This document shows positions 52,395 through 60,123 of a stretch of DNA of 64,000 nt, piece after piece. The notes beneath the pieces were generated by a model, which saw nothing but the letters and a program-made list of their open reading frames with translations, had not been told where the DNA came from and searched no databases. The translations under genes and the position numbers were made by a program. Origin of the DNA: Erysipelotrichaceae bacterium (GTDB taxonomy: Bacteria > Bacillota_I > Bacilli_A > Erysipelotrichales > Erysipelotrichaceae); the NCBI GenBank assembly GCA_017550145.1, contig JAFZQG010000004.1:62001-126000 (forward strand), read 5' to 3'. How positions within the stretch are numbered: position 1 is the stretch's first letter; each line of letters begins with the position of its first letter.

Positions 52395-53102
52395 ATGCGT
52401 AAACCCATAATCGGAATTCCTGCCAAGCAGAAAAATTTTGTCGAAGAAGAACTGGCTCATTTTGATACCCTCGTTGATGAACATCGGCTGATGGTCTGTA
52501 AACATGGCGGTATCACCATCATGCTGACACAGAGCGAAAGAAAACTGGATTTCTCCAAAAGCGATCTGGGTGATGATACGGTTTTGACTGAAGAAGAAAA
52601 ACAGGATCTTTATCAGCAGGTTGATCTGTGTGACGGCATAATTCTGCAGGGCGGCGAATTCAGCAGTGAATATGAAGTGGAAATTGCCCGTTATGCTTTA
52701 AAGAAGAATTTGCCGATCATCGGAACCTGCGCCGGTTTCAACAATATCTTAAGAGCTTTGGGTTCAAACATCTATGAAGATAAAACCGAAAAGCACAGTT
52801 CACGTTCTCTGACTTACCGTCATCCGATAAAGATAGAAAAAGATACGATGCTGTATCGGTTAATCGGAAAAGAAGATTATCAGGTAAACAGTCTACACAC
52901 AATGATCTGTGATGATGAAAGAGTAAGATCTTACGCAAAGATTTCTTCTCATTCACCTGACGGTCTTGTGGAAAGCTTTGAGGTTCCGGATAAAAGATTT
53001 GTGCTGGCTATGAAATGGCATCCGGAACTGATGGGTGATGATGAAGGTTCAGATAAGATCTTTACCGCTTTCCTTTCTGCTTGTAATGAAAACATCAAAT
53101 AA
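52395..53102 (+). CDS. C26 peptidase-like protein, diverged paralog
   Basis: The 235-residue protein starts MRKPIIGIPAKQKNF and has the class I amidotransferase nucleophile IGTCAGFNNIL (Cys near residue 117), VNSLHTMICDD and MKWHPELM (His and Glu). It is a distant paralog of the 44.1 kb protein, with a longer insert before the nucleophile. Substrate is unknown. GAGGA lies upstream of the start. It ends at the GCATCAGC hairpin at 53.1 kb. Confidence 0.82.
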   Translation: MRKPIIGIPAKQKNFVEEELAHFDTLVDEHRLMVCKHGGITIMLTQSERKLDFSKSDLGDDTVLTEEEKQDLYQQVDLCDGIILQGGEFSSEYEVEIARYALKKNLPIIGTCAGFNNILRALGSNIYEDKTEKHSSRSLTYRHPIKIEKDTMLYRLIGKEDYQVNSLHTMICDDERVRSYAKISSHSPDGLVESFEVPDKRFVLAMKWHPELMGDDEGSDKIFTAFLSACNENIK

Positions 53103-56974: not shown

Positions 56975-58477
56975 TTACTTTGCCTCCGTACTGTTTTTTA
57001 ATAAGACGTCATGTGCTCCGCCTTCAGCGATTGAGGTTGAGGAGACAAGTGTCAGTTTGGCTTTCTTCTGGAATTCCGGAATCGTGACTGCTCCGCAGTT
57101 GCACATGGTCGATCTGATCTTGTGAGTTGTGAGTCTGACGTTTTCTCTTAAACTTCCGGCATATGGTACGTAGGAATCAACACCTTCTTCAAAAGCAAGT
57201 TTGGCACTGCCGCCCATATCATATCTCTGCCAGTTGCGGGCTCTGGCACTGCCTTCGCCCCAGTATTCCTTATAGTATGTACCATTGATCATGACCTTGT
57301 TGGTAGGAGACTCATCGAATCTGGCAAAGTATCTTCCCAACATGACAAAGTCAGCACCCATAGCCAGAGCTAAAGTGATGTGATGATCGAAGACGATACC
57401 GCCGTCTGAACATACCGGTACATAGATGCCGGTTTTCTTGAAGTATTCATCACGGGCTTTGCAGACATCCATCAAGGCTGAGGCCTGTCCTCTGCCGATG
57501 CCTTTGGTCTCTCTGGTAATACAGATCGATCCGCCGCCGATACCGACTTTAACGAAATCAGCACCCGCATCAGCCAGGAAGCGGAAACCTTCCGCATCAA
57601 CGACGTTTCCGGCGCCGCATTTGACCTTACCTTTGTATTTCTTTCTGATCCAGGCTAAGGTTTCAGCCTGCCAGTCAGAGAAACCTTCGGATGAGTCGAT
57701 ACATAAAACATCGACTCCGGCTTCGACCAGGGCCGGGACTCTCTGTTCGTAGTCACGGGAATTGATACCCGCGCCTACGATATATCTCTTGTCGTCATCC
57801 AGCAGTTCGTTTGGATGATCCTTATGTGATTCATAGTCTTTTCTGAAGACCAGTGCCTTCAGATTACCTTTCTTATCAACGATCGGCAGGGTATTGAGTT
57901 TATGATCCCAGATGATGTCGTTGGCTTCCGAAAGGGTGACAGTATCTTTGGCTGTGATCAGCTTCTCTAAAGGGGTCATGAAGCTTGAAACGCTGGCGTT
58001 CATCGGAGTTCTGGAAATACGATAGTCACGCGAAGTAACCAGGCCTACGAGCTTACCGGTACCGGTACCGTCTTCGGTAACCGCAATCGTGGAGTGCTGG
58101 GTCTCTTCCTTGAGCGCCAGTACATCTTTTAAAGTCGCGTCCGGTTTGATGTTGGAATCGCTCGGCACAAATCCGGCTTTGTATGACTTGGCTCTTCTGA
58201 CCATTTCGGCCTGTGACTCAATGCTCTGGGCACCGAAGATAAAGGATACACCGCCTTCGGCTGCTAAAGCGACAGCCAGCTTGCTTCCGGATACCGACTG
58301 CATGATGGCCGATACCATCGGGATATTCATGGTCAGCTCAGGTTTCTGTCCTTTTTTATATCTGACCAGGGCAGTCTTTAATGAAACGTTGTCGGGTACG
58401 CATTTCTTGGTGGTGTGGCCCGGAATAAGCAGGTATTCATTAAAGGTGTGGGATACTTCATTAATAAGTTTTGCCAT
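56975..58477 (-). CDS. guaB: Inosine-5'-monophosphate dehydrogenase
   Basis: The enzyme oxidises IMP to XMP with NAD, the first committed step to GMP. The 500-residue protein has the N-terminal barrel, two CBS domains (residues about 90-215), the catalytic Cys in [12 protein letters not shown] (near 320) and the flap [15 protein letters not shown]. The AGGGAGG site precedes the ATG. A 13-bp hairpin lies between it and the permease gene upstream, with no T run. With guaA and the permease it forms a guanine nucleotide locus. Confidence 0.95.
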
Positions 58478-58555: not shown

Positions 58556-59980
58556 CTACTGCTGAGCTTTGTCTCCCAGAGTAAGAAGCAGATTCAGAAC
58601 GATTCCGAAGATTGCGGCTCCGGCAACGCATGGAATACCCATACCGAAGAACGGAATGGTTCCGCCATAAGCATACTGTCCGCCTAAGCCGATGATGCAT
58701 ACTAAGGCGATAACGGCAATGTTCTTGGAATCAAACATTGAAACACCTTTATCGATCAGGATCGCAATACCCTGAGCGGCAATCGCACCGAAGCAGTATA
58801 CTTCGATACCGCCGATGACAGGAAGCGGAATACCGTAGATCAGCTGAATCAGCGGTGTGAAGCAGGAAATGATCATCGCTATGATGGAAGCGACCATCAG
58901 CACCGGTACGGAGAAGACTCTCGTAATAGCCATGAGCGAAATGTTCTCGCCATAGTTTGTGCCGGCCGGACCGCCGACAGCACCGGAGACCATATCACAC
59001 AGACCGTCACCGATCAGGTTTTCACCTAATAAGGAAACCAGATCATATCTGCCTTTGCCTTTTTCTTTCGCTACATCATTTACATATATATCAAGCTGAT
59101 ACATATGAGCGGTCGATTCCGGAATGGTTGCGATAGCGATAGGCATGATTCCGATCAAGGCTGCCCAGGAGAATGTCGGGAAAGTGAATGCCGGTAAGGC
59201 AAAGAACGAACCATCACCGAGCTTGAAGGATGAAGCTGCTAAAGCTTCAGCCGGAACAGCTCTGAACAGGTTGATTCCGCCGACGAAGTTGAAACAGGCA
59301 GCTACGACGCAGCCGGTTATTACACCCAGCAGTAAAGGCAACTGTGAAAGCAGACCTTTAAGATATCTTGAATAGATACAGGTTGAAAGGAAAGTAATGA
59401 GACCGGTAATCAGCCAGGCACTCGCAACAGCCGAGCCCTGAGTTACATCCATGCCGTTGATGCTGTTACCGATGCCCAGGAAATCAGACATGGCGTTAGC
59501 AGCTAAGGTCAAACCGATGACCATTGATACTGAACCGGTAATGGTAGCCGGTAAGAATTTTTCAACTTTTTCCGCGCCGAATTTCTTTACGACCAGACCG
59601 GCAGCGATCGAGACGAAACCGGACATGATGATACCGAACTGAGCTTTGGAGATCAGTTCCGGCGGTAAGATGCCGGTAGCCTGCCATGCGGCGATCTGAT
59701 CAGTACTTCCTTCAGCCAGTGCCATGGCACTGACGGCAGAAAGATAAGAGAATGATGATCCATAGTAAAGCGGAATTCTGCGCTTGGTGATCAAAATAAA
59801 ACACAGGGTTGCAAGTCCGGAAGCGAAAATGGTGGTTGAGACTTGGAATCCTGTGATCAGAGCGACAGTGATAGTAGCTGGAAACATGACGATTACTTGC
59901 TGGAGCGCATAAAGTATCAGTTTTCCAACTGATGGCACTTCATCAGGTAAGTAGCCAATCTTCTGATTCTTAACAGACAT
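58556..59980 (-). CDS. Xanthine/uracil permease family (NCS2) transporter
   Basis: The 474-residue protein has 12-14 predicted membrane segments and the NCS2 core (LLYALQQVIVMFPATITVALITGF, FVSIAAGLVVKKFG, AIATIPESTAHMYQLD, GDGLCDMVSGAVGGPAGTNYGENI). The Ala-x-Thr-x-Pro-Glu-Ser and GGxxGTNYGENI motifs bind the base. Its neighbour guaB suggests a purine base such as xanthine, guanine or uracil as substrate. The start at 59980 follows AAGGGGG; the longer frame to 60010 overlaps the leader. Expression is likely set by the attenuator upstream. Confidence 0.88.
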   Translation of the reverse strand: MSVKNQKIGYLPDEVPSVGKLILYALQQVIVMFPATITVALITGFQVSTTIFASGLATLCFILITKRRIPLYYGSSFSYLSAVSAMALAEGSTDQIAAWQATGILPPELISKAQFGIIMSGFVSIAAGLVVKKFGAEKVEKFLPATITGSVSMVIGLTLAANAMSDFLGIGNSINGMDVTQGSAVASAWLITGLITFLSTCIYSRYLKGLLSQLPLLLGVITGCVVAACFNFVGGINLFRAVPAEALAASSFKLGDGSFFALPAFTFPTFSWAALIGIMPIAIATIPESTAHMYQLDIYVNDVAKEKGKGRYDLVSLLGENLIGDGLCDMVSGAVGGPAGTNYGENISLMAITRVFSVPVLMVASIIAMIISCFTPLIQLIYGIPLPVIGGIEVYCFGAIAAQGIAILIDKGVSMFDSKNIAVIALVCIIGLGGQYAYGGTIPFFGMGIPCVAGAAIFGIVLNLLLTLGDKAQQ

Positions 59981-60016
59981 AGTTTTACCCCCTTGGATGA
60001 GCCGGTTCATTTAAAG

Positions 60017-60074
60017 AAAAAAATCCCCCTATCCGGAGGATTTATACTCTTTCCAACAAGTTCAGTCCTTCCGG
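60017..60074 (-). promoter_or_regulatory. Attenuator leader with mutually exclusive stems
   Basis: On the minus strand the leader can form an intrinsic terminator (60021-60029 with 60035-60043, then seven U residues). Alternatively it forms an upstream stem CCGGAAGGA (60066-60074) with TCCTCCGG (60033-60040) that uses the same bases as the terminator's 5' arm. This is the layout of a riboswitch or protein-controlled attenuator. A promoter lies just upstream. I see no match to the classic purine aptamer. Confidence 0.7.
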
Positions 60075-60094
60075 AATTAAAACTCATTTTTACT

Positions 60095-60123
60095 AGAATA
60101 ACAGAATAAAAAAGACAATGCAA
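60095..60123 (-). promoter_or_regulatory. Promoter of the permease-guaBA region
   Basis: On the minus strand, TTGCAT (-35, 60118-60123) and TATTCT (-10, 60095-60100) are exactly 17 bases apart. Transcription would begin near 60088 and pass through the attenuator. Confidence 0.75.

Follow-up and report, generated by a model that had tools for sequence, protein, structure and literature searches.

A leader of ∼108 nt on the minus strand, 5′ of an operon for a uracil permease, GuaB and GuaA, probably serves as a cis-acting three-strand transcription attenuator that replaces PyrR-type control. On comparison of the sequences, the leader is a real, conserved and uncatalogued attenuator. Such comparison was shown to support the terminator, the antiterminator, a helix termed P0 and, more weakly, a 5′ hairpin (P1/P2), as well as the absence of pyrR from leader-bearing genomes. 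The window analyzed is a stretch of 64,000 nucleotides, and the features are listed in Table 1.

The leader and the permease operon

The leader runs from ∼60088, where we infer transcription to start, to the start codon. A promoter with exact 17-base spacing had been predicted and was present. It matches the consensus at 7 of 12 positions (a weak or modest fit), but its position and spacing are kept in most leaders, and most relatives have TTGAAT or TTGAAA, a 17-nt spacer and TATTCT-like boxes located 6 nt 5′ of the leader start. A conserved near-palindrome, GATAAATTCYTGATTATAACTATAATAYAAAACTTT, lies ∼75 bp 5′ of the leader start in many genomes of the genus (L002–L022, e.g., L012) and was not evident in the window; it is possibly an operator or a second promoter. 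The translation start, MSVKNQKIGYLP, is conserved in the relatives.

The original prediction of a short attenuator leader with a seven-U terminator was borne out by a terminator scan and by conservation of the leader in 16 genomes. The competing stem enclosing 25 bases was likewise exact (CCGGAAGGA/UCCUCCGG): in this antiterminator, CCGGAAGGA pairs with TCCTCCGG, with one bulged A. The loop region CCGGANGG of the 5′ hairpin can alternatively pair with CCUCCGG, half of the terminator, to form the antiterminator. The hairpin comprises P1 (AAUGRGUUU with RAACUUAUU) and, on top of it, P2 (UUCC-GGAN-GGAA). The 5′ strand, AAUGRGUUU, is nearly invariant among the 16 leaders and has two alternative partners, the nearby P1 arm or the P0 arm 5′ of the ribosome-binding site. 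Across the leaders the latter reads ACYCAUU or similar, immediately 5′ of the Shine-Dalgarno (SD) sequence, and covaries with the 5′ strand.

Table 1. Coordinates of the attenuator and of the operon in the window
Feature	Position	Strand	Basis or remark
Promoter	60095..60123	(-)	Sequence; -35 TTGCAT 60123-60118, 17-nt spacer, -10 TATTCT 60100-60095
5′ strand AAUGAGUUU	60080..60088	(-)	nt 1-9, common to P1 and P0
P1/P2 hairpin (anti-antiterminator)	60055..60088	(-)	AAUGAGUUU-n-UUCC-GGAA-GGA-n-GAACUUGUU
Antiterminator 5′ arm CCGGAAGGA	60066..60074	(-)	Pairs with 60040-60033
Antiterminator 3′ arm UCCUCCGG	60033..60040	(-)	Overlaps terminator 5′ arm
Intrinsic terminator AAAUCCUCC-GGAUA-GGGGGAUUU and U-run	60017..60043	(-)	Terminator scan; DNA AAATCCTCC-GGATA-GGGGGATTT at 60043-60021, 9-bp stem, seven U, U-run to 60017
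P0 3′ arm GGCUCAU	59997..60003	(-)	Pairs with 5′ strand; directly 5′ of ribosome-binding site
Shine-Dalgarno AAGGGGG	59988..59994	(-)	Sequence; ATG start codon at 59980
NCS2 permease, uracil (UraA) type	58556..59980	(-)	Profile match, closest solved relative, motif
guaB (IMP dehydrogenase), second operon gene	56975..58477	(-)	NCBIfam PRK07107, 933.6 bits; order kept in relatives
guaA ATP-pyrophosphatase subunit, 322 aa	56006..56974	(-)	Pfam GMP_synt_C; no glutaminase domain; order kept

The regulated gene had been taken for a purine permease, and this assignment did not hold. Among solved structures UraA was the closest (E ∼1e-38), when compared with 1e-6 for the uric acid-xanthine permease and 1e-6 or weaker for purine members. 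The protein retains the UraA-type YGENI..MAITR motif (TM10) and falls below the NCBIfam equivalog cut-offs. Its orthologues (∼66–86% identity) occur directly 3′ of pyrR, where the leaders have a terminator together with the conserved element CGGTACnGnGATGCCG. On these sequence grounds the gene encodes a uracil-type (UraA-like) permease, uracil being the predicted substrate. A purine link is possible only because guaB and guaA belong to the same operon.

Where contigs extend far enough, most leader-bearing relatives have the same permease-guaB-guaA order; the exceptions are L046, without guaA in third place, and L047, without an adjoining guaB. The guaA gene is of the ATPase-only type, resembling the split GMP synthetases of archaea, and a class-I amidotransferase/peptidase C26 gene at 52395-53102 (+) is at most a candidate partner.

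Covariation of the switching helices

When a single sequence was folded, the region up to the competing stem gave z = -0.74 and the whole leader z = -2.2. A single sequence is weak evidence, but conservation in 16 genomes together with covariation across species places the leader clearly beyond chance. The arms of each leader paired better with each other than with arms from other species for the terminator and for P0 (P = 5e-5 each, by permutation), and to a lesser extent for the antiterminator (P = 0.016) and P1/P2 (P = 0.012). Two control regions gave P = 0.52 and 0.026, so the weaker values need caution, and all permutation values are optimistic because the genomes are close relatives. Thus the competing stem is conserved among the homologous leaders and shows some covariation. 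Two further pairings were rejected: a helix between the linker and the U-tract gave P = 0.19, and pairing of the 5′ strand with the SD sequence or start codon gave P = 0.70.

P0 is the best-supported new helix and, in the sequence comparison, the one with the clearest evolutionary signal; the original prediction had missed it, as it had missed P1. In the register-fitted alignment, 5 of 9 P0 pairs had changes on both sides (12 cells), a result reached by none of 500 shuffles, and P1 alone was not significant. The P0 arms in alignment A4 were positioned by best duplex, which favours P0, but the signal collapsed in slid controls. The exchanges were G4-C/A4-U and A5-U/G5-C; position 5 was the clearest, with A-U in six leaders and G-C in most others. 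When leaders were taken individually, P0 reached p < 0.05 against dinucleotide shuffles in 8 of 15; L007 lacks it, and in L002 and L011 it is weak. The plain MAFFT alignment misaligns the P0 and hairpin arms, and RNAalifold therefore recovered nothing but the terminator from it.

Sequestration of the SD sequence by the P0 arm was considered and dropped, as that stretch, taken by itself, did not outperform shuffled sequences in folding. Formation of P0 left the SD sequence more open in all 15 folds.

Predicted folding order and candidate signals

Before the 3′ arm of the terminator exists, the antiterminator was the minimum free energy (MFE) fold in 14 of 15 leaders; at the terminated length, the hairpin plus terminator was the MFE fold, again in 14 of 15. 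At that length nearly all leaders had the P1/P2 hairpin in their MFE fold, and the antiterminator was barely formed in L005. In most leaders the predicted barrier from hairpin to antiterminator was ∼10–14 kcal/mol, and 10–16 nt were left until the end of the U-run. Crossing this barrier would be too slow for a 10–16-nt window, so the default state is predicted to be off, and a signal would have to prevent or open the hairpin.

The folds are consistent with the following order of events. The 5′ hairpin would fold first and hide CCGGANGG, so that the terminator forms and transcription stops. If the hairpin were blocked or slowed, CCGGANGG would capture UCCUCCGG, and the resulting antiterminator would permit read-through. 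The freed 5′ strand could then pair with the arm in front of the ribosome-binding site (P0), which would stabilise the on fold of the read-through transcript beside the SD sequence. The signal would most likely be nucleobase or nucleotide supply. As its relay we favour, with low confidence, a protein or some other factor that acts on the 5′ hairpin.

A further and rather doubtful reading is that PyrR was replaced at the genus level by a three-strand switch that is RNA-only or sensed differently; this switch would tie uracil uptake to GMP synthesis and sense a nucleotide directly or through polymerase speed. Rate sensing is conceivable because a G-run is conserved. In its ligand-free form, low GTP would slow the polymerase at the GGGGG directly 3′ of the antiterminator arm, so that the antiterminator could form in time for read-through into guaBA. 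The operon makes GMP, and 11 of 15 leaders retain GGGGG, although A would be the better partner for the U across from it. The run is, however, missing in the other 4 leaders, a short pause would not suffice to cross the predicted barrier, and the G wobble may merely tune terminator strength; we therefore consider such a sensor very unlikely.

The purine (guanine) riboswitch is known to control purine genes by termination. The original prediction, which stated that the leader was not this riboswitch, agrees with the absence of any RF00167 match in it: no three-way junction aptamer was detected at the Rfam cut-off, either in the leader or elsewhere in its own genome. RF00167 riboswitches occur elsewhere in the genus (L167, L171, L173–L175), 5′ of one gene type, which at the loci inspected was read as a BMP-type nucleoside-binding lipoprotein. 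A covariance search likewise matched the leader to no Rfam family at the family cut-offs, and literature searches found no description of it.

The leader had also been put forward as a candidate new small riboswitch. That it matches no known riboswitch stood, but few unpaired nucleotides proved to be conserved. Direct binding of uracil, UMP, guanine, GMP, PRPP or ppGpp by the 5′ hairpin, or by a pseudoknot of P1 with the antiterminator, would suit a leader that precedes genes for transport and biosynthesis and whose expression platform resembles that of a classical riboswitch. By inspection, the geometry would allow P1 and the antiterminator to coexist in an H-type pseudoknot whose linker is rich in purines. 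Against this, the linker differs in length and sequence among leaders, the leader is confined to one genus, and the GGA of the loop is accounted for by antiterminator pairing. In alignments of 12–16 leaders the conserved letters lay in the switching helices and the antiterminator loop, and no separate core was seen, which disfavours a classical aptamer. A new riboswitch is thus unlikely.

The best sub-threshold Rfam match was Phe_leader (RF01859), with 27.9 bits against a cut-off of 55, and was driven by the terminator. Unlike Phe_leader, the leader precedes different genes and has no conserved leader peptide: no small open reading frame was conserved, the AUG at nt 2–4 is AUA in L005, L007 and L021, and the frames end at different places.

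PyrR in leader-bearing genomes and their relatives

PyrR is the usual regulator of pyrimidine genes. Attenuators that respond to it (RF00515; the pyrR-pyrP-pyrB leaders of Bacillus subtilis) work by the logic of anti-antiterminator, antiterminator and terminator (PMC7430163), which the leader shares at the level of sequence and folding, and they also precede the pyrR-permease operons of relatives. The leader differs from them in having no PyrR gene and no PyrR-binding sequence, in the additional P0 helix to the pre-SD segment, and in being followed by guaBA rather than pyr genes. B. subtilis PyrR is antagonised by guanine nucleotides (PMC7430163), a precedent for cross-talk between pyrimidine supply and guanine nucleotides.

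The shared logic, and the orthologous permeases in pyrR operons, would fit a PyrR site that has diverged but still serves a PyrR-like protein. On the leader, however, RF00515 scored 16.2 bits against a cut-off of 54, and the CGGTACnGnGATGCCG element of the related pyrR operons was absent from all leaders, its pattern being found only in pyrR loci. Near-matches to the PyrR-site pattern in the leader's own genome were few, and both of those examined lay in coding DNA. No match to the PyrR protein was found in G000 or in any of the 16 leader genomes, and we regard a retained PyrR site as highly improbable. Clear pyrR operon leaders (L040, L048, L056 and L085) also fell below the RF00515 cut-off, so PyrR sites of this form seem to escape the model. 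Leaders with a terminator but no recognised upstream PyrR gene and no Rfam match precede permease orthologues in L061, L071 and L082; these are possibly further unclassified attenuators.

Within the genus, which consists of rumen-type bacteria, 16 genomes carry the leader, in one copy each and only at the permease operon. Other matches of the covariance model were generic terminators or chance: L158–L160 were weak and located where a tuf gene ends, L218 was a plain terminator, and L219 lay in a coding frame. Five genomes of the genus have the permease without a full leader, so the leader is dispensable: L016, L018 and L022 show no attenuator trace, the leader is deleted in L010, and L014 has no terminator but retains the 5′ strand and a match resembling P0. 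Such losses in several relatives would fit an ordinary constitutive leader, whose leaky terminator only fixes how much short RNA is made relative to long RNA, without any signal. Alternatively, the terminated 5′ RNA might act in trans on the pre-SD segment, since P0 complementarity fits cis and trans pairing alike. A plain terminator, however, needs neither a conserved competing stem nor compensatory changes, and these readings are quite unlikely.

Replacement of PyrR control by the cis-acting attenuator is consistent with the distribution of pyrR, which was found in 8 of 36 genomes of the genus but not in any of the 16 leader-bearing ones. Under independence the probability of this by chance is ∼0.004, by our own arithmetic, which ignores relatedness and gaps in the metagenome-assembled genomes. 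In close relatives outside the leader group, the orthologues are encoded in pyrR-permease operons that have PyrR attenuators. The nearest outgroup of the leader/genus clade in the permease tree sits in a pyrR operon, which makes it probable that the leader took the place of PyrR control. Within the permease clade G009 is exceptional: two of its contigs overlap by 141 identical bases, from which it follows that its orthologue ends a pyrR-permease pair, with guaB elsewhere.

Uracil phosphoribosyltransferase scored above cut-off in 35 of the 36 genus genomes, whereas a true aspartate carbamoyltransferase (pyrB) was found in only 6, most of the genus being without it. With the salvage enzyme near-universal and pyrB mostly missing, uracil salvage is likely to be vital in most of the genus.

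These data suggest (i) how a lineage without PyrR, and mostly without de novo pyrimidine synthesis, may keep a nucleobase permease regulated; (ii) that pyrimidine uptake and GMP synthesis would be linked in one transcript; and (iii) that the helix from the 5′ end to the pre-SD segment may add a testable element to the usual layout of attenuators.
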